NCBI GenBank assembly: GCA_015039365.1
Contig: WION01000023.1
Coordinates: forward strand, 62,001-126,000
Source of the DNA: Amanita rubescens
Taxonomy: Eukaryota > Basidiomycota > Agaricomycetes > Agaricales > Amanitaceae
Direction of reading: 5' to 3'
Length of the DNA stretch: 64,000 nt
The notes beneath the pieces were generated by a model. That model saw nothing but the letters and a program-made list of their open reading frames with translations, searched no databases and had not been told where the DNA came from. Below are positions 1,545 to 63,199 of this stretch, piece by piece. Position 1 is the stretch's first letter. Each line of letters opens with the position of its first letter. The position numbers were made by a program, and so were the translations under genes.

Positions 1545-4500
1545 ATGGAATCAGGCACAGATGAGACACATGTTAAACTGCTCAGGGAACAATATCTATG
1601 CCCATACTTTCGTATACTTGTCATTGGGAGGGCTATTGCAGGCAAGACAACCATCCTTGAGAAGGTTTGTGGTGTAGCAAAGGGGACAAAACCCATCATA
1701 TATGACAAGGATGGTAAGTCAGTCTGAGCTTGCTTGCGCTTCTTTTGATTGTTGAGTTTGTTGCAGGTAATCAGCTTGAACAGTCTGAAATACATTTGGT
1801 GCCATCACTTGAGGTGAGCCAGATAATGGTGTATGGATGTATCCATACACATGCAATGATGACAGAAACGCTTGCATAATATTGAGCATCAAATTACATA
1901 CCCTGGAAGTAACTTTATCTTCCATGACTCTCAGGGTTTTGAACCTGGTTCAACTGAGGAATTGGAGATTGCTTGGAAGTTCATTGAAAGGAAGTATGCA
2001 GAAACTGAGCTGAAGAATCAGCTACATGTAGTGTTGTGAGGTTAGGTTAAGTCCGGTTAATTGCCCCAAAATTGATTAACTGTAACTGATCAATATAAGT
2101 CAGAAACAAGTCCCAAATGCCAACAGCCTAAGTCAGAAGTATATTGTCCAATACAGAATGATAAACATAATGAAAATTGCATACAAATTAGAGCCTCACA
2201 ACAGCCATGCAAAACTTTGCTCCTCATCAGCATCCCAGAGAACTATGTTTCTGAGTGTGGTGAGGGAAATAGCTAGCAGATTGAACATGAGAAACTAATT
2301 GTATATTGCTTTTTGCATGTCATGGACCACATTGCTAATGAGAAACACAATAATTTTGACATCCCTTCACAAAATACTTCATATCTCATGAACCACTGGG
2401 CCAAATTACATGAATAAGGGCTCAAAATGAAGCTAAGGACCAGCTCTACAAGGTTGCACAATTTAACCGGTCATAACCGGTCATAACCGGTCCGGTTAAG
2501 GTTAGGGAAAGGGCCTAACCTTAACTGATAATTAACTGGTTGAGCAGTTAGGTTCAGTTAAGTTACAGTTAATTGCAGTTACATAACTTAACCTCCCATC
2601 ACTAGCTACATGCAATTTGGTATCTTGCTTTATCCCTTTACATTACTGACTGACCAAGCCACCTGTAGGTACTGTATACCCATGGACAACTCTCATCCTA
2701 TTCAACCTGCAGAACTTGAATTCTTCAACAAAGGGACAGGCAGAGGTAGGTCCTAATGAATTCATATCTCATCTTGTTGGTTTTGGAGGGATTGTTTTCC
2801 CTTAACTATTGTTACCTCCTTTCCATTGATCAACTTTTCACAAAATCTACTAGTACTGACTAGTAAATATTCATTTTACAGTTCCTTTAGTGACTATATT
2901 CACCAAATTTGATACTCAAATAGCCTGTGAATTTGACAAGTTGACTGATGCAAAGGATGAAGATGAGTGGGAGAGGGCCAGGGAAATTGCTGAAAGCACT
3001 TTTCAGACAGTTTATCTCCCTAAAGTTTTGAATGCTAAATATCCTCCTATAGCATATGTGAGATTAGAAGGTGAGAATAGTGAACATTTCTTCCTTGAAA
3101 ATAAAATAAAAATGCTGCTTTATAGACATGGATTTGCCAGAGAAGGATTGCCCTGAATTGACTCAGAAAACTGCTGATGCAATTGATACAAGCATACATC
3201 AACTGTTTGTTCTAACACAGATGAATAATCTGGACTGTTCAGTTAAATCTGCACTTCGGTGAGGGTCACATTCAAAATGTCATTTACTAACATTGACATT
3301 GTTTAGACATGTTCTGAAACATAAACATTGGACATGGGATGATGTCATCATCATAGTTCTTTCAAAATTTCCACATTCCTGGGTATGCATTTTTGTCAAA
3401 CTACACATCAGCATAGGAAATTCAAATGTCAATAGGTGGACAGGGAGGTAGGTGGCATTCATATGGAATGATAAATATCTGCAAAAAAGTTCATTAGGAG
3501 GTAAGTAACATTCCAATACCATCAGATGAAAACAAGATTAGTCATGCTTCAGATGGCTAATAAACAACTGAGTGAAACACAGGTTAGTTGTCACATATTC
3601 TTGGTGGCAGGATCTAATGTTATTGATATCAGTGGGTAAGTACATAACATTGAGCTAGGATAAATCTTATATATTGTCCCATGACAACAGTTTGTGAGTA
3701 ATGCTTCCTTTTGTGATCAGCAGTTTTGTCCCATAATCTACAGGAAGTGAGTAACACTTTTTTTTTTTGGTGAATTATCCCATGGCACATCATATGATCA
3801 ATAGCAAGTGAGTTAATCTATCACTCCAAGCAGACTTGTCAATCCAGTCTCTTGTGGACAGGGAGTGAGCAATACAACATTGCCTCACACCACATCTGAC
3901 CTGCTTAAAGAAAGTAAGCAACATTGATGTTTGTGCAGTTTATCAGATGTAACTCAAGGAACAATAGAAAGTCAGTGACATACTTTATCTGAAAGAGAGT
4001 CCCAGCAAACTTCATTGAATCAACAACAGGAAGTAAGTGACATTTCCTTTCTGTCTGCTGGTAAACTGTCCCAAAACAACAGACAGTAAATATTTTTCCT
4101 TTTCAAAATCTCTTCACAAGCTATTGCAAAACAAATAGGATGTATGTGATACTTGTGTGAGATATGAATTCATCATATGAAGTGCTATTGCAAAAGAGGG
4201 TCAGTGGCATTGTATTCTTTTCTCCCAACTCATTATACCAATTCAATTCTAAAAGGAAGTGAGTGATGCTGGCCACTCTGCTGCAAGACAATTTGGACAC
4301 ATTCTTTTGTTCTACAGACTGTGAGCGATATTGCAAGTTTTGTGAAAAGTAATGAAATCACATCTCCAACAGTCTGTGAGTGACATTGCACATTTTGTGA
4401 AATGCAGTCTCATCACATCATTTCCTATAACAAACAGCTAGTGAGTGATGTTGCACATTTTTTTGAAAGGCAGTCTCACCACATCTTTTCCTGTGACCAA

Positions 4501-6588
4501 TAGCCAGTGAGTAGCATTGCACATTTTGTGGAAGGCAGTCTGATCACATCTTTTCCTATTACAGCTTGTGAGTAGCAGTGGATATTTTGTGAAAGGTAGT
4601 CTCATCACATCTTCTGCTATGACCAACAGCTTGTGAGTGACATAGCACATTTTGTGAAAAGCAGTCTCACCACATCTTTTCCTATGACCAACAGCAAGTG
4701 AGTGACATTGTACACTCTGCAAAAGGCAGTCTCATCACATCTTTCTCTATGACCAACAGCAAGTAAGTAGCATTGCACATTTTGTGAAAGGCAGTCTCAT
4801 CACATCTTTTCCTATGACCAACAGCAAGTGAAGTGCATTACACATTTTGTGAAAGGCAATCTCATCACATTTTTTCCTATCACCAACAGGAAGTAAGTAG
4901 CATTGTACATGTTGTGAAAGGCAATCTCAACAAATCTTCTCCTATGATCAACAGTTTGTGAGTGACATTGCACATTTTGTGAGAAGCAGTCTCATCACAT
5001 ATTACAAACAGCCAGTGAGTGAAATTGCACATTTTGTGAAAGGCAGTCTCCTCACATCTTTTTCTATGACCAACAGCAAGTGAGTGGCATTGCACATTTG
5101 AAAGGCAGTCTCATCACATATTTTCCTATCATCAACAGCCAGTGAGTGACATTGCACATTTTGGAAAGGAGTCTCATCACATCTCTCCTTATGACCAACA
5201 GCATGTGAGTGGCATTTCACATTTTGTGAAAGGCAGTCTCATCACATCTTTTCCTATGACCAACAGCCAGTGAGTGACTTTGCACATTTTGTGAAGGCAG
5301 TTTCATTACATCTTTTCATGTGACCAACAGATTGTCAGTGACATTGCACATTCCGTGAAAGACAGTCTCATCACACCTTTTCCTATGACCAACAGATTGT
5401 CAGTGACATTGCACATTTTGTGAAAGGCAGTCTCATTGCATCTTTCCCTATGACCAACAGTTTGTAAGTGACACATTTGTGAAAGGCAGTCTCATCACAT
5501 CATCTCTTATGACCAACAGTTTGTGGGTGGCATTGCACATTTTGTGAAAGCCTGCAGTCTCATCACATGTTTTCCCTTGACCAACAGTTTGTGAGTGGCA
5601 TTGCATATTTTGTGAAAGGCAGTCTCATCATATGTTTTCCTTTGACCAACAGGTTGTAAGTGACATTGCACATTTTGTGAAAGGCAGTCTCATCACATCT
5701 TTTCCTTACCAACAGCCAGTGAGTGAAATTGCACATTTTGTGAAAGGCAACCTCATCATATCTTTCTTATCACCAACAGCCAGTGAGTGAAATTGCACAT
5801 TTTGTAAAGGCAGTCTGATCACATCTTTCCCTATGACCAACAGCAAGTGAGTGACATTGTACATTCTGTGAAAGGTGGTCTCATCACATCTTTTCCTATG
5901 ACTAACAGCTTGTGAGTGACATTGCACATTTTGTGAAATACAGTCTCATCATATCTTTTCCAATGACCAACAGCTTGTGAGTAACATTGCACATTTGTGA
6001 AAAGTCTCATCACATCTCCTCCCATGACCAACAGCAAGTGAGTGAAATTGCATATTTTGTGAAAATCAGTCTCATCCTATGACCAACAGCAAGTGAGCAA
6101 CATTGTGCATTGTTGTGAAACACACCCTTATCACATCTTTCCTATAAACAATAGCGTGTAAGTGACATTGTACATTGTTGTAAAACAGTCTCATTACATC
6201 TTGTCCCATGACCAACAGAAAGTGAGTTACATTGGATATTGTGTGAAAAGCAGTCTTATGTACTACAATATCAGGAAGTGAGTATTAGCCTCACCTTTTC
6301 TATTTCTTTGCCTTACATTATCACCCATAGATTATAAGATTCCTTTTCAGCTTACCCAATCCTGGGGCCTCATGTAATCATTCCTGACTTACATGATATC
6401 CTTAATTTTCAGGTAAGTGAAACTTGCTCATGAGACATTAATTTCATATCAGTTTGCATGCTAGTGTGTAGGTCTCATAGTACATTGAAGGATTTCCTCT
6501 TTCTTATTACTAGCATGCACTTTTCTCCATGTTTGGAGGTCAACAAGAGAACTTTGCAGTCAATGTATGGTTTTCTTTTCTATTGTAG
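1545..6588 (+). CDS. P-loop GTPase (AIG1/HSR1-like G-domain protein), MITE-interrupted, with a micro-exon array in its 3' half
   Basis: The start is ATG 1545. Exons that join in frame are 1545-1713, 1767-1813, 1887-2028 plus 2613-2619 (split by a MITE), 2669-2745, 2882-3070, 3126-3258 and 3307-3382. Motifs: P-loop GRAIAGKTT (G1), FHDSQGFEPGS (G3, DxxG), FTKFD (G4, TKxD). After ...KFPHSW come 3436-3447 (VDRE), a GAG codon, a 30-nt exon 3553-3582 (MANKQLSETQ), then 44 consecutive 3-nt exons (see the array entry). Terminal exons are 6351-6412 (YPILGPHVIIPDLHDILNFQ) and 6514-6588 (ending GGQQENFAVNVWFSFLL). The last micro-exon and exon 6351 differ in phase by one nucleotide in my model, so one junction is wrong or the gene is damaged. 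Agaricomycetes have many such orphan GTPases. The MITE puts a stop in exon 3, so this copy is probably inactive unless the MITE is spliced out. G-domain call is firm; the 3' half is a model. Confidence 0.72.
2029..2604. mobile_element. non-autonomous hAT-like MITE (576 bp)
   Basis: The ends are inverted repeats: TAGTGTTGTGAGGTTAGGTT on the left and the complement of TAACTTAACCTCCCATCACTA on the right. An 8-bp target duplication GCTACATG lies at 2021-2028 and 2605-2612. TAGTG termini and an 8-bp TSD fit the hAT superfamily. No transposase is encoded. Near the right end are repeated ACCGGT motifs (2466-2497). Removing the element and one TSD copy restores an open GTPase exon reading ...NQLHAIWYCIPMDN..., which confirms the boundaries. 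Confidence 0.88.
3498..6277 (+). repeat. array of ~45 tandem short introns separated by 3-nt micro-exons
   Basis: From 3690 to 6277 the sequence is a run of units of about 50-66 bp. Each ends in a 3' splice-site-like (C/T)AG, then exactly three nucleotides, then a 5' splice-site-like GTGAGT/GTAAGT/GTCAGT. In the 3' two-thirds (4370-6230) the unit is well conserved: GTGAGTGACATTGCAC near the start, CAGTCTCATCACATC in the middle, CCTATGACCAACAG at the end. In the 5' third (3690-4320) the interior is diverged and lengths range 46-59 nt, yet the AG-NNN-GT spacing is kept. Triplets include TGG 3633, TTT 3691, GAA 3744, CAA 3805, GGA 3862, AAA 3911, ACA 4083, GAT 4139, ACT 4318, CTA 4438, CCA 4504, CTT 4565, CAT 5202, ATT 5331, GTT 5653, CGT 6155, GAA 6275. 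None of the 45 is a stop. The triplet is the most variable part of the unit. It may be spliced coding sequence or a satellite born from an intron. Confidence 0.85.
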
Positions 6589-6707: not shown

Positions 6708-9338
6708 CACCTGTTCAGCCGGCGAAATTTTGCTAATTAGCAGTGGTGACTCATTGAGTCACCCTTGCCAGTTAGCAAGCATTCAGGCTTTGTGGCACAC
6801 TTTCAATAATTGCTGAAATTATATAGAGCGATTTTGCACCAAGTCCAGTTTCCCACACCTAAAAATGAAGCATTACCATTTCTGGAAGGTGGGGATATGT
6901 TTGTACATGTTATGACATGGGAAATGGATCAAAAGAAAGGAACAAGGGGATAATTGCCTTATTTGGTAAGATGGGGAAATTCCAAATAAGGAAAGCAAGC
7001 TAGGATGCCATTTTTGGAAGGTTGTGAGGGTGTTTGTACATGTTATGGCACAATTTCCTTTTTTGGAAAAAGTGTCAAACTTCCAAATAAGGCACAAAAT
7101 GGGTCATTCAGGGTCGAATTTCCTAAAAAGGAAATGATTACATAATTTCAGGGTCAATCAATTGTGTAGCCTTGGTCAGTGGCTTTCTAAATGTGGTTGT
7201 ATGACAGTGTTTGGTGTTGATTTCATTGAGATATCCACTGATTGATTTTCAGGGTCAAATTTCCTAAAAAGGAAATGATGACGTAATCTCAGGGTCAATC
7301 AATTGTGTAGCCTTGGTCAGTGGCTTTCTAAATGTGGTTGTATGACAATATTTGGTGATGATTTCATTGAGATATTCACCAATTGTTTTTCAGGGTCAAA
7401 TTTCTAAAAAAGGAAATTGATAATGTAATGTGCGCTTTAGGATCCAGTGGCGCATTTCCAAAAATGGAAATAGCACCCTTCGGACTTGCCATTTTGGGAC
7501 ATATCTGCTCACTGTTGGTGATGATGAGCAGAAAGAAATTGCAATATCTCCCTTAATATTGAATGTTTTTGTGGCGCGTTTTTTGGAACATATTCCTTAT
7601 ATGTATATGCACCTATCCACTATGTTAGAATGTAAAAAATGCGAGTGGTTTCTGTCAGAATGCAACATGTCTTGCTCACTGTTGTCAACAGTGAGGAGCA
7701 AGAAATGACAATATCTCCACCAATACTGGTTATTTGTGTGGCGCTTTTTTTGGTATGTCCCCATTAGGCATATAGGAGGGTATTTGGCATGTCAGAATAC
7801 AAATTGTATGTACCAACCATGCCACAAATGAAATTGGTGTGCTCACTGTCTGCCATGATGAGCAGCCATATCTCCACCAAAACAAGATCTCCCTGTGGCG
7901 CTTTTTTTGATTTGCAATCACATATAACAAAGATAAACATTGGGAGGGTCTCAACAGAGGATCCTTAGGCAAGATTGAGTGGAATGTCCCATTCTTCCTG
8001 ACATGTCAAGTTGTCAGCCACTGTTTCTGTATCATGTTCAGACTTTTATCATGAAACTTAAAATTACACATTAATCAGCAGGGAACTGTGCTTCCAGACA
8101 CCCTGAATGACACTCTGTTATCATAGGAAATCAAGATCTAAAAAGGTGCCACAGAAAGATCTTGTTTTGGTGGAGATATGGCTGCTCGTCATGGCAGACA
8201 GTGAGCACACCAATTTCATTTTGGCATGATTGGTGCATAGAATTTGTATTCTGACATGCCAAATACCCTCCTATATGCCTAATGGGGACATACCAAAAAA
8301 AGCGCCACACAAATAACCAGTATTGGTGGAGATATTGTCATTTCTTGCTCCTCACTGTTGACAACAGTGAGCAAGACATGTTGCATTCTGACAGAAACCA
8401 CTCGCATTTTTTACATTCTAACATAGTGGATAGGTGCATATACATATAAGGAATATGTTCCAAAAAACGCGCCACAAAAACATTCAATATTAAGGGAGAT
8501 ATTGCAATTTCTTTCTGCTCATCATCACCAACAGTGAGCAGATATGTCCCAAAATGGCAAGTCCGAAGGGTGCTATTTCCATTTTTGGAAATGCGCCACT
8601 GGATCCTAAAGCGCACATTACATTATCAATTTCCTTTTTTAGAAATTTGACCCTGAAAAACAATTGGTGAATATCTCAATGAAATCATCACCAAATATTG
8701 TCATACAACCACATTTAGAAAGCCACTGACCAAGGCTACACAATTGATTGACCCTGAGATTACGTCATCATTTCCTTTTTAGGAAATTTGACCCTGAAAA
8801 TCAATCAGTGGATATCTCAATGAAATCAACACCAAACACTGTCATACAACCACATTTAGAAAGCCACTGACCAAGGCTACACAATTGATTGACCCTGAAA
8901 TTATGTAATCATTTCCTTTTTAGGAAATTCGACCCTGAATGACCCATTTTGTGCCTTATTTGGAAGTTTGACACTTTTTCCAAAAAAGGAAATTGTGCCA
9001 TAACATGTACAAACACCCTCACAACCTTCCAAAAATGGCATCCTAGCTTGCTTTCCTTATTTGGAATTTCCCCATCTTACCAAATAAGGCAATTATCCCC
9101 TTGTTCCTTTCTTTTGATCCATTTCCCATGTCATAACATGTACAAACATATCCCCACCTTCCAGAAATGGTAATGCTTCATTTTTAGGTGTGGGAAACTG
9201 GACTTGGTGCAAAATCGCTCTATATAATTTCAGCAATTATTGAAAGTGTGCCACAAAGCCTGAATGCTTGCTAACTGGCAAGGGTGACTCAATGAGTCAC
9301 CACTGCTAATTAGCAAAATTTCGCCGGCTGAACAGGTG
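6708..9338. mobile_element. large foldback (palindromic) element, 2631 bp
   Basis: Two near-identical inverted arms (about 6708-7935 and 8120-9338) surround a spacer of roughly 185 bp. The termini are CACCTGTTCAGCCGGCG and its complement. An 8-bp duplication TGCCAAGT sits at 6700-6707 and 9339-9346. Identical open frames of 92 codons (7430-7708 +, 8338-8616 -) and 74 codons (6873-7097 -, 8949-9173 +) occur in both arms simply because the arms are copies; neither looks like a protein. The arms are rich in short palindromes of the TTTCCTAAAAAGGAAA type and carry an internal direct repeat (about 7130-7250 and 7250-7395). The 8-bp TSD points to hAT or a P-like group, but the termini fit neither classic consensus. 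Confidence 0.85.
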
Positions 9339-18357: not shown

Positions 18358-20624
18358 ATGTACCACGGATACGGTGGCCCATCGAATTATGGAAATAGAC
18401 AAGTACAACAGAATACAAATATAGGCTATGGAAGAAACAACGGCTATGGCCCAGGCTCGAGCGTGCAACCGGACTCCCCGCAGGTATACGACGTACCCTA
18501 CATATTTTGTTCGCTTATCTTTTCCTAGCCAAACTACGACCTCGCGAGGGATATTGTGGGACAAGCGACGCACGAGTTTCTTCTGGAAACCGGGAATAAA
18601 GAATATTCCCTTATATATGCAGAGGTACAAGAGTTGCGGTACGTGACTTCAACATCTTACTCGCATATACCTACTATCATCAAATGATACTAACATAATC
18701 TTACAGGAAACAAGTGATAAAACTAGAGACGCATGTTGAAGTGCTTCAATCGCTTCATGAAAAGGATCAAACGTGAGAGTTCGGAGTTGCATTTATATAT
18801 GCGCACTAACTACTATGTCCCCACGATGCCAGACTAATGATGACTATGAAGAATGCGGCTATCACAAATCTCCCTGCCGTTCCTGAGAGCCAAGCGAAGA
18901 TTCAAAACCGAGACGTGGCACTCCGGTCTGCTTTCCCAATGGCATTTGACACATCAATTGAAGATGCATCATATAAACATGGCGAGTACACGGCAGTCAG
19001 GTTCTGGAACCAGAAGGACTGGACCGGACGCAGGGGAACCCCACAGGGTACTATCGGACCGCGTTATCGCTTCCTCCAGGACGAGGATGGTGATATAATA
19101 ACTGAAGTACGACTCACTGAAATTCGCGCGTTCCTCCTTGGCGCATTCAATGAATTGCAAGAATTGGTCGGCAAAGATGCCCTCCCTAAGACATGGGCCA
19201 ACGCTACTAGGGGCCGTGCTGTGGTAACTGCGTGCCACTCTGAACTCCGTCGACGATTCGCCGAGTTTTCTTTTTGTAATGGAGATTGGAAAGCCCGTTC
19301 CTTCATGGTTGAATGGTACCCAAGCTGGGCTCGGAACCATCTAGAAGACGACATCGAAATAACCGAGACTGTACCGGCAAAACGTCCAGCGGCTTCGGAA
19401 TCTTCGAAGCAGCCAAATAAGAAGACGAGGATCGCGAAGGAGGAAACAGTCAAAATCCCTCAAATTCGGGATCCATTGTATGCATTTGAGAACGTGCTAT
19501 AACGTGCTAACACATGTCGCTCTAGGGGAACTATGGACACCAACTTCGCAACTGTTAATATGCCGTCGACACTATCATCTCAATTCCCACCGAATGGCTC
19601 GACTGAACCAATGACGCCAGCGATCAATTCCAATATGCAAGAAGTTTCAAGTTTCAATGCAACTACGCCGCCGCCAATGCCTAGCGGCATACCTGCACCA
19701 AGCACGCCGAGTAACGATTCCCCTTTCTTTCAATTTGACTTCAAACTCAGATGTGATCACACCAACAGTGCCAGGTGCACCCAACGTTACCCTCAAGCCT
19801 GCTGTTCCCGCACCGTCACCATCCAACGAGTCCGCCGCACCAAGCGTGTCCAACGTTACCTTCAAGCCTGCTATTCCCGAACCGGGACCATCAAACACTC
19901 TTGGACCCGCACCGAGCGCGTCCAACATTACCCTCAACAAGCCTGCTGTTCCCGCACCGTCACCATCCAACGAGTCCGCCGCACCGAGCGCGTCCAACGT
20001 TACCTTCAAGCCTGCTATTCCCGAACCGGGACCATCCAACGAGTCCGCGTCATCAAACGCTCTTGGACCCGCACCGAGCGCGTCCAACATTACCCTCAAC
20101 AAGCCTGCTGTTCCCGCACTGTCACCATCCAACGAGTCCGCCGCACCGAGTGCGTCCAAGCCTCCCATTCCCACACCAGCACCGAGTACCAAGGGAGTCG
20201 GCAAGAAGAGGGGAAGGAAACCCGGGGGCGTCGAGATTAACCCCAACACGACGAACCCTAAGTAAGTCATTGTTTCGTAATACTTGTTTTTTTACTCACA
20301 CACGCGGCTACGACCATAGGGAACTTTTCGGCTTAGAATGGCTAGCGTCGCAGGAGTCCAACGCGCCTCGCTCAACGGCGGCGCTTAACGCGGCGTGGAA
20401 AGAGCTTGGGGAAGCGGGGAAAAAGGTGCGTCCTGCTATAGTTTACTTGACTCGAACTTCTACTGATTCACTTCAACTTACAGCCGTACAAATCCCTTAG
20501 TAAGAAGCTAATAAGGTTCGTTATATTGATTTAGTAGCGTATCTAATTGATAACGTGCTACAGTGAACGTAAATCAATGGCTTTGGGAGCAGGGGAGGAA
20601 GGGGGAGAAGGAGGGGAGGATTAA
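18358..20624 (+). CDS. AT-hook protein of the Tnp2 transposon (~613 aa), candidate subterminal-repeat binder
   Basis: Nine exons give a continuous frame of 614 codons: 18358-18483, 18529-18638, 18707-18772, 18833-19477, 19526-19710, 19751-20261, 20320-20425, 20484-20515, 20564-20624. The N-terminus is Tyr/Gly/Asn-rich (MYHGYGGPSNYGNRQVQQ). A central folded region includes YTAVRFWNQKDWTGRRG and VVTACHSELRRRFAEFSF, followed by a basic KRPAASESSKQPNKKTR stretch. Then come degenerate repeats of the APSPSNESAAPSASNVTFKP type (19770-20150), and an AT-hook core KKRGRKPGG. In plant CACTA elements a second protein (TNPA) binds subterminal repeats; by analogy this protein may do so here. That role is inference. 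Splice phases all agree, which supports the model. Confidence 0.6.
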
Positions 20625-27448: not shown

Positions 27449-28180
27449 CTATTCCCCATGCCCTCGCGCACGGTTTTCCCACATCGCCCCCCATGGTCTT
27501 TTGGTACCATTCGCTACGTCACCACCCGTGGTTTTCTTACACCAGCACATCTATGGTTCTTGAGAACCATCCTCCACACTTCCGTCAGTGGTTTTCTTAA
27601 ACCAGGATGACCATGGTTCTTCAGAACCGTTTAACCCTGCCTTCCCGGCGGTTCTGTTATACCAGCTCCACCCTCATGGTTCTTTGGAACCGTTCGCCAT
27701 GTCCCCGCCCGCGGTTTTCTTACACCAGCACATCCATGGTTCTTGAGAACCATCCTCCATGCTTCCGTCAGTGGTTTTCTTAAACCAGGATGACCATGGT
27801 TCTTCAGAACCGTTCAACCCTGCCTTCCCTGCGGTTCTGTTATACCAGCTCCACCCTCATGGTTCTTTGGAACCGTTCGCCATGTCCCCGCCTGCGGTTT
27901 TCTTACACCAGCAAATCCACGGTTCTTGAGAACCATTCTCCACCCTTCCGTCGGCGATTTTCTTACGCAGCAGTGTTCCTCACACCATCGCACACGGTTT
28001 GCTTACACCAGCAACACCTGGTTCTGAAGAACCATCACAGTTTCCTTATACCAACACTACCCTGGTACGAAGAACCATTCCTTACACCCTCTCACACGGT
28101 TTTCTTATATCTGCGCCACTCTGGTTCTGAAAAACCAATCCTCACTCTCTCATACACAGTTCTCTTACACCAACACTCCT
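27449..28180. repeat. higher-order minisatellite with hairpin-forming monomers
   Basis: Monomers of about 61 bp carry words like ATGGTTCTTGAGAACCAT or ATGGTTCTTCAGAACCGT, which are inverted repeats. Three monomer types alternate (CCAGCACATC, CCAGGATGACC and CCAGCTCCACCC variants), giving a higher-order period near 183 bp for at least two full periods (27490-27900), then decaying towards 28180. It lies directly against the gypsy B 5' LTR. No coding role is apparent. Confidence 0.8.
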
Positions 28181-38000: not shown

Positions 38001-40108
38001 GAGCGCTTTACTCTCCCCCCCCTAAGATTCTCGGACTCCGAGCAGAATCCGAGCAGTCCTAGGACTCAGCTCGGAGTGAGCTCGGAGTCCGAGCTCACTC
38101 CTCGGACTGAGGAAGTGGCAGGGATGCCACTCAAATCCTCAAGTCCGAGTCCGAGCTCAGTCCGAGCTCAATCCGAGCTGAGTCCGAGCTCAGCTCGGAC
38201 TTGGACTTGGAGTCCTCGGACTGAGGATGTCGGAGTCCGAGTGGAGTCCGAGCAATCCGAGTGGAGTCCGAGCAGTCCGAGCACCCCCAAGTGGCAAGAG
38301 CAGGGGGGGCAGTGGCGACATTGACAGGGCCTTATATACATATGGCCAGTCTGTTTGGCACTATTTGGCACTATTTGGAATTGTCTACACCTACAATAAA
38401 ATCCCAAAAAATATTTAAAAAATGCAGAAAAATCATGTGATTCCAGTCATACAAAAATGGTAAAGCCAAACAAGCCCAAACTTGAGATATTTGCAAAATA
38501 CTTTTTCAGACGCTTCATGTGAGAAATTTGAAAAGTCTGCAAAAAATCTTTAAAAATGCGGAAAAATCATGTGATCCAGGTCATATAAGAATGGTGAAGC
38601 TGAGTAAACTCAAACTTGAGATATTTGCAAAATACCTAAGTTTGATTGGGGCACTGGCATACAAAACAGTGTGGCTAGTATAGTACAATGTGGATCATTA
38701 TGAAGTTTTAATGCTGATGTGACCTGCCTTCCACAATTCTTCAATCTTACATACAAATCTGGCTGTGCAGCTTTCTTTACTGCACAAATCACCACATCTT
38801 TCAAGATAGCACTATTACTTCTCTCCAGCCTTACAACCTCTTAGATCAAACAGTTCATCAACCATCAAGTTCAAGGCTTGTGTGCTTCCACATACTGAGC
38901 ACATCTGAAATAGAGTCACCAGCAATGCTGACTCTTCCAACTTCTCAGTGAGAAATTGTCCAAGGGTGTTATTTGCATTGCCACTGATAGTTTCTTCATC
39001 CAATATAGCATCCTTAATAAGTATAAATTAAGTGAAGGAAGGACTTGTGAACTTGGTGTGCAAAAGTTTGTAAGATGTTTGCTATGAATCTATGATCTTC
39101 AAGTTCCAAGTTAATATACAATAAAGATGGCATCAGAATCACTGAATCCTGTTCATCTCCACTTTCCTTATTACCTTACCCAGGCTGTCATAAACAAAAC
39201 TCTGGTCCCCTATGGATTCGGATGATTGTGGTGGAGTATGAGGGTCTTCAAATACTGCTAGGAATCTAGGATGTCCAACCTTCCCCACCAACAGACTGAG
39301 TGGTTGCTGGAGGTATACATGACCAAAGTTGTGCAAGGTGAGGCTCTCAGGATGCTTCTACTACTGTAAAAGCTTTGGTAGGCTGCAAATGCTAGAACAT
39401 CATGATCATAACACAATATGCTGTTAACAACTACTCACTACCATGTACCATCACCAAAGAATTGTCAAGAACTCATATCCACCCCCTTCTCCCTTGAGAT
39501 AATATATTCACAGACCCCATGAGTCACATCTCCAACCCTCTCACATTTATTCATGAGCTCTAACAACTCTCTGCAATGTCATTGGTTGTTGGTAACAGGT
39601 GGGATTGTGGAAGTTGACTGTGAAACAAGTGGATGCTGAACTGCAACTGCCAGAAGTCTGCTGTGGGCATGCAGGCAGAGGTGACATTCATCATAACCAC
39701 CAGTATGGAATGACAGGTGTATGAGTGTACCATATGCAGATCACATAATTTTTGTACACTTCTTAAGATTACACTCACATCTGAAAACATATTTTGCAAA
39801 TATCTCAAGTTTGGCTTTGTTTGGCTTTACAATTCCTATATGACCTGGATCACACGATTTTTCTGCATTTTTTAAGCATTTTTTTGGTATTTTACTGCAA
39901 GTATAAACAACTGAGAGTGAACTCAGACTGAACTCGGAGTCTACTCGGAGTCTACTCAGACTCCACTCGGACTCCACTCGGACTCCGAGCACACCTCGGA
40001 CTGGACTCGGACTGGACTCAGACTGAGCTCGGAGTCTACTCGGAGTCCTCGGAGTCCTCGGACTGGACTCGGAGTCTATTCGGACAGGGGGGGGAGTGTA
40101 AAGTGCTG
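38001..40108. mobile_element. hAT-like non-autonomous element (2108 bp) with CGGACTC-rich ends
   Basis: Termini GAGCGCTTTACTCTCCCCC and the complement of GGGGAGTGTAAAGTGCTG; 8-bp duplication GTTCACAG at 37993-38000 and 40109-40116. The first ~300 bp and last ~200 bp are dense in GGACTCGGAGTCC-type words (subterminal repeats, many palindromic). The core (38350-39860) has flanking near-inverted A/T-rich segments and minus-strand frames that look like broken exons (DEETISGNANNTLGQFLTEK; RSNSAILKDVVICAVKKAAQ; SLLVGKVGHPRFLAVFEDP). No transposase seen; the core may be captured host sequence. Confidence 0.7.
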
Positions 40109-41077: not shown

Positions 41078-42307
41078 TAGTGTTTAAAAGTCTGGTCATG
41101 AGAACCGGAAAAAAACCGGAACCGGACCGAACCGTAACTGGTTGTGACCGAACCGTCGGCCACGGTTTGGTCAGTTGGAAAAAATTGCAGTTACGGTTTT
41201 GAAAAATTTGGGAAACCATAGAACCAGTCATGACAGGGGTTTTTGAGGTCGCTGAATCCGATGGTAAAGTCAGCGTGGTGCGAAATTCATTAACAGATTT
41301 GCTAGAGCATTTTGAGACATTAGCACCCCAGAACTTAGTATGGCCTAGGACTATGACCAGCTGTCCCTATCTTTCCAACACTGTTTCTGGGGTTCCTGAG
41401 GTCGCTGAATCCGATGGTGAAGTCAGCGTGGCATGAAACTCGATAACGGATTTGCTAGAGCAGTTTGACACATTATCACCTGCCAGAACTTATAAGCTAG
41501 TAGCACTATGACAACATTTCCCTACATCTCTGACACTATTTTGGGGGTTTCTGAGGTCGCTGAATCTGATGGTGAAGTCAGCGTGGTGCGCGCTTCAGTA
41601 ACGGATCCGCTAGAGCGTTTTGACACATTATCACCCCAGAATGTATAAACTACTACACTATGATGACATTTCCCTACATCTCTGACACTGTTTTGGGGGT
41701 TTATGATGTCGCTGAATCCGATGGTGAAGTCAGCGTGGCGCGCGCTTCAGTAACGGATCCGCTAGAGCGTTTTGACACATTATTACCCCAGAATATATAA
41801 GCTAGCACTATGACCACCTTTTCATACACCTCTGAACTGTTTCTGGGGTTTCTGAGGTCGCTGAATCTGATGGTGAAGTCAGCGTGGCGCACGGTTCGTT
41901 AACGGATCTGCTAGAGCGTTTTGACACATTATCACCCCAGAATGTACTATAAATTACTATGACCATCTTTCCCTACACCTCCAACACTGTCTCTGTGGTT
42001 CCTGAGGTCACTGAATCCAATGGTGAGGTAGGCATGGTGCAAAATTTGTCAATAGATTCACCATAGATTCTCTAGTTGTACTATACAGTCCGAGTCTCAA
42101 TACTAGTACTTCAAGTGATACACAGTTCTAACCGGTTCTCTTGTGACCGGTCAGAACCGAAAACTGCATGCAACCGAACTGCACATAACCGGTTACGTGC
42201 GGTTCAGTTTCGGTTCTTGCTTTCGAGGCAAGCTCAGTGACCGGTCACGGTTGTGGTTTTCCCAAATTTGGGCAAAAAACCGGACCTAACCGGACTTTTA
42301 AACACTA
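41078..42307. mobile_element. hAT-like MITE (1230 bp) carrying an internal tandem repeat
   Basis: Termini TAGTGTTTAAAAGTC and the complement GACTTTTAAACACTA; perfect 8-bp duplication ATCATATT at 41070-41077 and 42308-42315. Subterminal ACCGG/ACCGGT words recur at both ends (41104-41165; 42130-42290). The centre (about 41230-42060) holds six units of roughly 150 bp, each with GAGGTCGCTGAATCCGATGG and GTTTTGACACATTATCACCC. It encodes no transposase. The element sits close to the 3' end of the minus-strand host exon at 42332. Confidence 0.85.
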
Positions 42308-61609: not shown

Positions 61610-63199
61610 ATGGCCCCAGGAGGCTCCAGGAAGCCTCCACTGGATATCCCGAGGGAAACGAACCCTCGGGAAAACTTGAATCTCGCAATTGAGGAAACCT
61701 CCTCATTGCTCCTTCCCGAGAAGGAGAGGAGGTATCGTTCCTCACGAAAACGAATGAAAACTAAGTACTACGAGCTTGAGGCTCGTAGCGAGCAAATACG
61801 CAATGAAGTTCAGTTGAACTTCAGCTCAACATTGTCTCGTGAACTGGAAATAATATCCAGTACCCTTAAGAGCTGGCGGAAAGTCTTCCCCGCTCATAAA
61901 CGAGAACATTATCTTCAGTGTTCTCAACTCATATCCGATCACGCAACTGAGTTTGACGTGTTCGTCGTGACATACTTGAAGTCTCACTTCAGACTCAACG
62001 AGCATTCACGCGTCGTTCAACTCAACTTCCGCAACGCGTACCTATGCTTGCATAATGGTTCTTATGCCTCGGACACGTTACCCAAGCCATTCCTGAAGCT
62101 TGCTGAAATCTGGGATTCACGTGTACGCATTCAGCTCACTCACGACCTTACCCACTCGGATAGCCAACCTCCGACTCAAGACCCCGGTAACAAGCTGTCA
62201 CCACTATTGGCAACCGCCGAGACAACGAGGAAGAGTCCCGGAGTCATCTCAAAGGCGACTGTAGACAAGCGAGAACGCGTCCGAAGCACGTCAACGCCAA
62301 CACGTCCTGTCTCAACTCCGAGTAGGACCACCCTTCTCCCTATGAAGGACAAGCCCCGTCCTTCAACCGTTCCACGCAAACACGACTCTCCACGAGTCAA
62401 GTACAATGCTGGAAAGAGAGACTCGGCCCTTGAGTCTCCAGATACCCCGAGACGAGTTCAAGTCACTCGTACTCAAGAGCGTCCGAGCTCGTTGAAGCCG
62501 GATCTCACTCCCGCATCTCGTGAACTCCAAAGGAATTCACCGAGTAAGCCCAACGAGCCAGCAATAGCTCGTGGTTTAGATTCACGAGGGAAACTTCCCT
62601 CGGAATTGTCTAAGAAGATGGAATTGTCCGTCTCTCATACACCATCTCGGAAATCCAATACGCGTGATAAGCGTATAACGCCACCAATGTTAGAACCCTC
62701 CGTGTTTGTCCGGAAACTTCCAGACAAAAGTACGAGAGTTGTCGGAAACTCGTCTAAGTCACGAGTCGTTGCTGTTGCTACATGTTGCGCTCCTAGCCCT
62801 CGTGCTGAATCCAAATTGAAATCTCAAATTGGAAACAAGTCAGTTAACACGAAGGAACAAGTGAGCACAGCCGATTACGCACCTTTGTCCGAGAAAGCCC
62901 CCCCGCTGTCTAAACCCTTGCCCGTCTCCTCTATACGGGCCAGCCCTCCTGTTCAGCTCAATAATGGGTTAATTCTTGCACCCTCCTGGCTTTCCAAACA
63001 ATGCGAACCTCGTGTCGTCAACATGAAGTCAGTAGTGAGTAAGATTACTCACTTAACGGACGAAACTCATCCGAAGACTCTTCACCAAGCCGGAGACCCG
63101 CAGTTTGGTAATCCACCTCCCGTGCGAGAAGTCAATTCGGCTCGAACAAACCATAGAAGCGAAGGGAAGCTCGCCCTTGCTTCCCGAAATCTCGAATGA
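61610..63199 (+). CDS. Gag-like first ORF of the 61-kb retroelement (529 aa)
   Basis: ATG 61610 (MAPGGSRKPPLDIPRETNPR) lies about 185 nt after the putative LTR. A basic/helical N-terminal region (KERRYRSSRKRMKTKYYELE; FSSTLSRELEIISSTLKSWR; HFRLNEHSRVVQLNFRNAYL) is followed from residue ~190 by a long Ser/Thr/Pro/Lys-rich disordered part with many SPRV/TPRRV-like words. The stop is TGA 63197-63199, but a +1 frame is open across it. Position after LTR and primer site suggests Gag; there is no zinc knuckle, so the call is tentative. The DNA is dense in short perfect inverted repeats. Confidence 0.5.
   Translation: MAPGGSRKPPLDIPRETNPRENLNLAIEETSSLLLPEKERRYRSSRKRMKTKYYELEARSEQIRNEVQLNFSSTLSRELEIISSTLKSWRKVFPAHKREHYLQCSQLISDHATEFDVFVVTYLKSHFRLNEHSRVVQLNFRNAYLCLHNGSYASDTLPKPFLKLAEIWDSRVRIQLTHDLTHSDSQPPTQDPGNKLSPLLATAETTRKSPGVISKATVDKRERVRSTSTPTRPVSTPSRTTLLPMKDKPRPSTVPRKHDSPRVKYNAGKRDSALESPDTPRRVQVTRTQERPSSLKPDLTPASRELQRNSPSKPNEPAIARGLDSRGKLPSELSKKMELSVSHTPSRKSNTRDKRITPPMLEPSVFVRKLPDKSTRVVGNSSKSRVVAVATCCAPSPRAESKLKSQIGNKSVNTKEQVSTADYAPLSEKAPPLSKPLPVSSIRASPPVQLNNGLILAPSWLSKQCEPRVVNMKSVVSKITHLTDETHPKTLHQAGDPQFGNPPPVREVNSARTNHRSEGKLALASRNLE

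Follow-up and report, generated by a model that had tools for sequence, protein, structure and literature searches.

The 64,000-nt stretch of the Amanita rubescens genome analysed here (positions 62,001 to 126,000 of contig WION01000023.1, referred to below as the window; the assembly has 75.7 Mb in 786 contigs) carries a gene of this basidiomycete for a putative GTPase, in which the linker between the GTPase domain and a C-terminal helical domain is taken up by an array of exons of one codon each, separated by short introns. The gene and an insertion in it comprise the following features.

1545-1713, 1767-1813, 1866-2035, 2669-2745, 2882-3070, 3126-3258, 3307-3382 and 3436-3447, plus strand: GTPase-domain exons, with GT-AG joins and one open frame
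3498-3500, plus strand: single-codon exon no. 1, GAG, in the AG-NNN-GT pattern
3553-3582, plus strand: ordinary 30-nt exon, MANKQLSETQ; the same kind is found in 15 of 21 sequences with a strict pattern
3633-4440, plus strand: 15 core single-codon exons, TGG TTT GAA CAA GGA AAA AAA GAA ACA GAT AGG GAA ACT TCT CTA
4504-6277, plus strand: 29 variable single-codon exons, the ~65-bp tandem part (an intron of usually ~62 nt plus a codon)
6331-6333, plus strand: further codon-sized exon, ATT, with the donor ATAAG in the window copy
6514-6564, plus strand: exon HALFSMFGGQQENFAVN, start of the C-terminal domain, resembling LFSVFG of the homologous proteins P0036 and P0044
6708-9338, no strand: palindromic insertion within the C-terminal-domain exon, absent from loci L031 and L032
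9339-9519, plus strand: rest of the C-terminal-domain exon (AKLSFWINKP...)

As had been proposed from the sequence of the window, its upstream exons are of the GTPase kind: all eight join through GT-AG introns into 291 open codons (1545-3447) with the C-end ...FPHSWVDRE, and since they enter the array in phase 0, the reading frame of the array is fixed. The product contains GRAIAGKT, which has the form GxxxxGKT of the Walker A motif. Its best Pfam match, the TRAFAC-type GTPase model MMR_HSR1, is weak (17.5, below the cut-off of 21.9); P0088 passes this cut-off (25.2 vs 21.9), and P0044, P0055 and P0003 stay below it. Pfam scans of five proteins gave no NACHT or ankyrin model, the best meaningful matches being G-domain models, and a PDB sequence search with P0044 returned 0 matches.

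The original prediction of 45 three-nucleotide exons was borne out by the count: GAG at 3498-3500 is followed by 44 more, from TGG at 3633 to the last variable exon, GAA, at 6275-6277. Between positions 3401 and 6600 the pattern AG-N(k)-GTRAG(T/C) occurs 37 times with k=3 and 0-2 times with each other k of 0-12, and the k=3 form occurs 2 times in the remainder of the window. The 3-nt exons hold throughout the 5' third, as claimed, although the spacing is not unbroken, the ordinary 30-nt exon lying between the first two of them. A zero-length exon or recursive site CAG/GTTAGT at 3582/3583 was ruled out, as it is the end of this 30-nt exon. The introns of the 5' third have indeed diverged (the first 15 of the core have a mean identity of 57%, 83% in the best pair). 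Introns from 3633 onward are 46-65 nt long; those that follow the 15 core exons measure 46-63 nt and are mutually mostly dissimilar. Left unspliced, 3633-6277 contains 54, 48 and 49 stops in the three frames. No stop occurs among the triplets of the window, in agreement with what had been read from the sequence; of the two alternative readings of the joined triplets, both said to contain stops, one does and frame +1 is open. The downstream exon that had been placed at 6514-6588 exists, with a corrected span of 6514-6564.

The array is a member of a large family, with at least 451 matches in the genome to a 301-bp piece of it. We parsed 21 arrays (the window's and those of 20 further loci) by chaining exons of 0-15 nt and introns of 42-80 nt. 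Three-nucleotide exons account for 1004 of the 1091 chained exons (716 of 784 without five near-duplicate arrays, L031, L032, L038, L041 and L042, which are also excluded from the entropy, codon and divergence counts below) and number 23-85 per parsed array, some arrays being cut by the ends of contigs or stretches. Most of the remaining chained exons are accounted for by the 12-nt exon that precedes the array, by the terminal part of the 30-nt exon or by 3-nt exons chained with alternative edges; exons of 1, 2, 4 and 6 nt total 25, with 16 in L045 and 5 in L034. Three core exons in a row (TTT, GAA, then AAA, CAA or GAA), used as a signature, have 109 matches in the genome vs 1 for the reversed control, and contiguous DNA for WFE[QKE]GKK, searched as an exact degenerate pattern, has 0 matches in the genome. 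An equivalent of the ATT exon is found with a strict pattern in 12 loci (ATT in 8, AAT in 4), each time followed by GTAAG.

In the paralogues, core units 1-12 carry the conserved motif WFEQGKKETDRE. The core of 14 non-duplicate genes reads mostly W-F-E-Q-G-K-K-E-T-D-R-E-I-(K/E)-Y, and units 1, 2, 3, 5, 6, 7 and 10 are invariant in 14/14; L047 and L050, chains without the TGG start, are absent from these counts. Within one gene the core introns have little in common (in L033 identity is 55% vs 47% shuffled, similar to the window value given above), and between genes units 1-12 differ by 2.8% in their codons vs 6.6% in their introns. The first twelve codons are a fixed motif under purifying selection, and the constraint fades ahead of the variable part of the array. 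That the paralogues keep 3-nt exons and core codons despite changing introns speaks for the proposed reading of the triplets as single-codon exons.

The same reading is supported by homologous proteins in which the codons are joined. The window's GTPase protein has 318 homologues, the best named ones in Amanita; 31 sequences (30 plus P0121) were examined, and seven of these (P0003, P0016, P0025, P0036, P0044, P0055 and P0121) contain the WF motif followed by a linker. Some homologues are Joint Genome Institute (JGI) proteins on contigs of 1.1-1.9 kb with frames that run through the GTPase exons without introns, and we take them to be RNA-derived because these reading frames are uninterrupted. 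P0003 (386 aa on a 1446-bp contig) consists of the GTPase exons followed by VDRAVTNEQLSETK-WFEKGKKESDREIEY, a variable tail of 43 residues with a final I, and VRFHFRGSPNPTSC. Genomic translation from the ATT microexon on gives I-VRFHFSSPTPTSC in three loci and variants in nine more, and since I-VRFHFRGSPNPTSC is close to this translated intron, P0003 resembles a transcript from which the array introns have been spliced out except for the last, which is retained; such apparent retention of the terminal array intron is seen in P0003 only. P0025 carries the 30-nt exon and the core, MANKQLSEAQ-WFEHGKK (MANKQLSEAQWFEHGKKDTDKQIVY), the residues of the 30-nt exon thus preceding the WFE codons in this transcript-like protein as well. 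The tail of P0003 has 83 matches in the genome, all starting at tail residue 1 or 2, in the last GTPase exon. Against their eight best loci each, P0003 and P0025 are 71-80% identical over the matched parts, so they probably stem from other Amanita genes or species. As the joined codons are present in transcript-like homologous proteins, one of which retains the last array intron, the array codons are, judged from these sequences, very probably spliced into mRNA.

Among those examined, public Amanita rubescens protein records (e.g. P0001, P0002, P0086) end before the array or skip it; with gene models of this kind the annotated proteins are therefore truncated or linker-less. The linker is hypervariable: P0036 and P0044 agree at 276/290 positions in the GTPase part and 88/94 in the C-terminal part vs 10/31, plus 17 gap columns, in the linker. 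It is probably also disordered, as a structure model of the homologue P0044 suggests, in which both domains are mostly confident and nearly all residues of 296-342 (the linker) have a predicted local distance difference test (pLDDT) value <50.

Downstream of the 15 core codons the arrays have a variable segment of 13-71 codons, in which no other columns of the unit vary nearly as much as the triplets. Over 406 units with 62-nt introns from 16 arrays (column and pairwise counts were made with 62-nt introns only), column entropy is 0-0.44 bit in the introns vs 1.58, 1.73 and 1.27 at the codon positions. Variable units of 14 genes are 59% divergent in codons and 3.0% in introns, and those of the eight most homogenised genes 60%, close to random, and 0.9%, a contrast of 20- to 68-fold per site; exact consensus introns accompany 23 different codons. 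Within the window's array the introns are 19% divergent. Identical neighbouring codons occur 99 times vs 63.4 expected, and of 30 pairs of units with a common derived intron variant, 12 agree in the 5' codon (4.4 expected) and 18 do not.

Comparison of close copies shows how far the codons have moved relative to their surroundings. The flanks of L036 and L037 are 0.69% apart over ~1300 bp upstream, and their codons align no better than expected by shuffling (-18 vs a shuffled mean of -18.9). In 12 of the 15 pairs with a flank divergence >0 and <2% the codon alignment lies within the best of 20 shuffles (L041, L047, L048 and L050 were excluded from this comparison of flanks with codon order), the three pairs above the best shuffle being L034/L035 (barely), L035/L037 and L037/L038. 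That the L036 array was recently transplanted from elsewhere in the assembly was rejected, no match to its 1-kb piece being closer than 96-97% among the scored matches. L035 and L038 have 0/3697 differences in their flanks, 4/153 nt in codons and 4/3233 nt in introns, with two neighbouring codons replaced; for L035 and L037 the differences are 9/153 nt in codons and 9/3229 nt in introns. Copies of an internal block of L042 differ at 11/57 nt in codons vs 5/1181 nt in introns (p=2.7e-12), and L040 differs from L042 in length by one unit.

Codon choice in the variable part is equally unusual. Among 505 variable triplets (L047 and L050 counted whole) there is 1 stop, the TGA of L048, vs 22.5 expected from positional composition (shuffle mean 22.5, minimum 10), a further point for single-codon exons. 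Synonym use is nearly exclusive: 60/60 G are GGA, 69/69 Q are CAA, 53/53 E are GAA and 107/109 R are CGA. The window's GTPase exons, on the other hand, use most synonyms (GGA 1/11, CAA 5/12, GAA 16/27, CGA 1/11). By class, the triplets comprise 291 NRA, 28 NYA, 39 NRT, 116 NYT, 1 NAG and 1 NGT; as GT comes next after the triplet, an NYA triplet would make an acceptor of the YAG type, and NGT would add another donor. The choices for V (GTT 17, GTA 0) and I (ATT+ATC 16, ATA 0) fit avoidance of rival splice sites, and this statistical pattern suggests that the splice machinery restricts the triplets that are tolerated. Splice-site avoidance does not explain why first-position A and second-position C are very rare in the variable triplets (16 arrays); as a consequence, the A. 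rubescens linkers have almost no N, K, S, T, A or P. P0003, which is from another source, does have N, P and A.

Overall, we regard it as quite probable that the array is protein-coding and spliced codon by codon, and that the linker is diversified by unit-wise recombination under diversifying selection. Each unit of ~65 bp would combine a full GT-AG intron of ~62 nt with a single codon in phase 0, and in the mRNA these codons would make up a linker from the GTPase domain to the C-terminal helical domain, as the homologues indicate and as presumably holds for the window gene. Because near-identical introns separate every residue, exchange residue by residue becomes possible, and unequal exchange and gene conversion may add, delete or replace residues singly; one gain or loss of a unit and a few codon replacements are in fact seen between near-identical copies. 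The introns would be homogenised family-wide while diversifying selection keeps the codons different. Since every exon is 3 nt long, exon skipping may add isoforms. A plain tandem duplication of intron plus codon, as in the original prediction, agrees with the one-unit difference between L040 and L042 and with the excess of identical neighbouring codons, but by itself it leaves unexplained why identical introns stand next to different codons. By analogy with fungal non-self recognition genes, the likely role of the linker is in variable recognition, within a non-self or signalling system based on GTPases, and the GTPase gene family looks like a system for rapid variation of a recognition protein.

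Several observations weigh against this interpretation. L045 (C749:1-9900) and L034 (C13:577500-587400) have exons of 1, 2 and 4 nt among the 3-nt ones, which may reflect degenerate copies, assembly errors, frame-compensating changes or another rule. Over all 15 core units the contrast between codons (6.6%) and introns (7.2%) is small, because units 13-15 already vary. The RNA support comes via homologues at the distance given above (71-80%), whose RNA origin is deduced from open frames, and the C-terminal exon of the window copy is broken. Codon turnover is not universal: L040 and L042 differ at 0/252 aligned codon nt, the window and L031 at 1/132 nt in codons and 10/2709 nt in introns, and L035 and L037, with upstream flanks 1.5% apart, still have most codons in common. 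Finally, diversifying selection is read from the contrast between codons and introns, and neutral codon change combined with homogenisation of introns only would look alike.

The most probable of the alternatives, although we consider it unlikely, is the following: a mutator targeted at the triplets, or copying of introns only (e.g. intron RNA or cDNA recombining back), would generate the contrast instead of selection. The size of the per-site contrast and the 23 different codons next to exact consensus introns would both follow from it, as would the 1-kb piece of L036 that has no near-identical donor (next best 96-97% among scored matches) and the change between L037 and L038, where CGA CTA CTA stands against GAA CTT GCA, with CTA otherwise missing from the L038 array. 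Other changes, however, bring in a codon that the array has elsewhere (ATC GGA to CGA CGA) or lengthen it by one unit, for which ordinary conversion suffices; most arrays draw on a restricted codon set, derived intron variants keep the same 5' codon more often than expected, and the conserved WD40 repeats of Podospora with their hypervariable codons are explained, in the passages available, by concerted evolution plus selection. A bolder version, in which the arrays are a dedicated single-residue diversity generator combining codon-sparing intron copying or a codon-only mutator with somatic exon skipping, is possible but doubtful in our view; if it were true, a gene copy could quickly gain an unrelated linker of tens of residues in the same intron scaffold.

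An introner-like burst, with one intron copied between all codons of a formerly continuous exon so that the codons are old and the introns new, is improbable. It would account for introns that are almost identical across loci next to codons that differ, with a homogeneity that stops exactly at GT and AG. Copies only 0.7% apart in their flanks have unrelated codons, however, so the codons are not old, and the choice of nearly one codon per amino acid with avoidance of rival splice sites, unlike in the window's GTPase exons, is equally unexpected. Introner-like elements of fungi, as the cited passages have it, are many near-identical introns per genome (PMC4457414), whereas the near-identical introns of Amanita are seen only in arrays. 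Exact 20-nt intron ends with a fourth exonic letter other than G number 22 in the genome (a count without a denominator), 17 of them in the arrays L034 and L045; their contigs are C13, C254, C599 and C749, which have arrays, and C190, C229 and C726, which have other family hits. The exact-search matches include no isolated near-identical introns in unrelated genes, although diverged copies would escape such a search. A dispersed introner is rejected on this ground, near-identical introns in the exact search being confined to array or family contigs.

More improbable still is that the whole block forms a single long intron, excised through recursive (ratchet) splicing via AG-NNN-GT sites, with the triplets left out of the mature mRNA. 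Paired splice sites on every unit would suit such ratchet points, as would the examined public models that stop before the array and P0086, which jumps from HYWVMMKQ to LFALFTLFGG as if the segment were intronic. P0003 and P0025 nevertheless contain the codons in frame, and neither the near-absence of stops nor core codons more conserved than introns is needed by ratchet points. Removal of the whole block as the only product, offered as the second option in the original prediction, is rejected, since the transcript-like proteins include the codons. That the repeat is a non-coding satellite in an intron, with AG-NNN-GT merely its consensus, is scarcely credible and was rejected: a 65-bp tandem repeat homogenised within a family is what a satellite would look like, but the 3-nt spacing persists in a core with mostly dissimilar introns, the triplets are the most variable columns, nearly stop-free and in phase 0 after the GTPase exons, and the 22 intron ends without the G (17 in L034 and L045) are also at odds with it.

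The original account of the 3-bp mini-exons in Tuber melanosporum NACHT-ANK genes is reportedly that of Iotti et al. 2012. Citing passages describe an expanded NACHT-ANK family in this truffle with tens of codon-sized, 3-bp microexons that are alternatively spliced (PMC4986451, PMC3689799, PMC9815663, PMC10197012), and this description is earlier than that of the Amanita arrays, so that the original prediction's remark that no such gene had been described does not stand. As far as these passages go, both are expanded fungal families with tens or dozens of 3-bp exons (45 in the window gene) in a variable part of the protein, for which diversification of recognition is proposed. The truffle family is an ascomycete NOD-like receptor (NLR) family with reported alternative splicing, whereas the Amanita one is a basidiomycete GTPase family in which scans of five proteins gave neither a NACHT nor an ANK match. 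In Amanita the array lies in the linker before the C-terminal domain and has 65-bp tandem units with near-identical introns and hypervariable codons.

The HNWD genes of Podospora anserina (het-d/e/r) are described, in the passages available, as having similar tandem WD40 repeats with concerted evolution, few hypervariable codons and repeat shuffling. The Amanita arrays likewise combine homogenised repeats with hypervariable codon positions; in HNWD four variable codons lie inside each coding repeat, whereas here the repeat is an intron and its sole coding codon varies. The exons of schistosome micro-exon genes (MEGs) generally exceed one codon. These platyhelminth genes have in common with the Amanita arrays very small symmetrical coding exons, and the source passage reports isoforms by alternative splicing (PMC4350168). 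Micro-Ex8 of Drosophila homothorax is described as an isolated 3-bp exon (PMC7392893), placed as in Amanita between CAG and GTRAGT, although single and not arrayed.

What is new here is the gene family, the phylum and the codon-versus-intron contrast; among open-licence papers nothing was found on microexon arrays in Amanita, agarics or GTPase genes. Our results suggest that the spliceosome copes with dozens of 3-nt exons in a row, here in a second phylum of fungi and in an unrelated gene family. With conserved introns and hypervariable codons, the reverse of the usual pattern, the arrays are a natural experiment, and they open directly testable questions on the recognition of minimal exons and on fungal recognition diversity outside NLRs.

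The window's own copy of the gene is probably not intact, because the palindrome splits its C-terminal exon and the donor of the ATT exon reads ATAAG. The palindrome (6708-9338, ~2.6 kb) is made up of two arms of 1120 nt, 100% complementary to each other, around a 391-nt spacer, and is flanked on both sides by TGCCAAGT, an 8-bp duplication whose length is hAT-like. The gene region closest in sequence to that of the window is present in identical copies on C61 and C363 (L031 and L032), and C271 has the same GTPase matches as these two contigs; haplotypes, a recent duplication or assembly redundancy are the options. Other tandem repeats in the window are found at 41236-42026, 27488-27966, 19781-20048, 38148-38281 and 39921-40085 (units of 152, 60/183, 69 and 11 bp).

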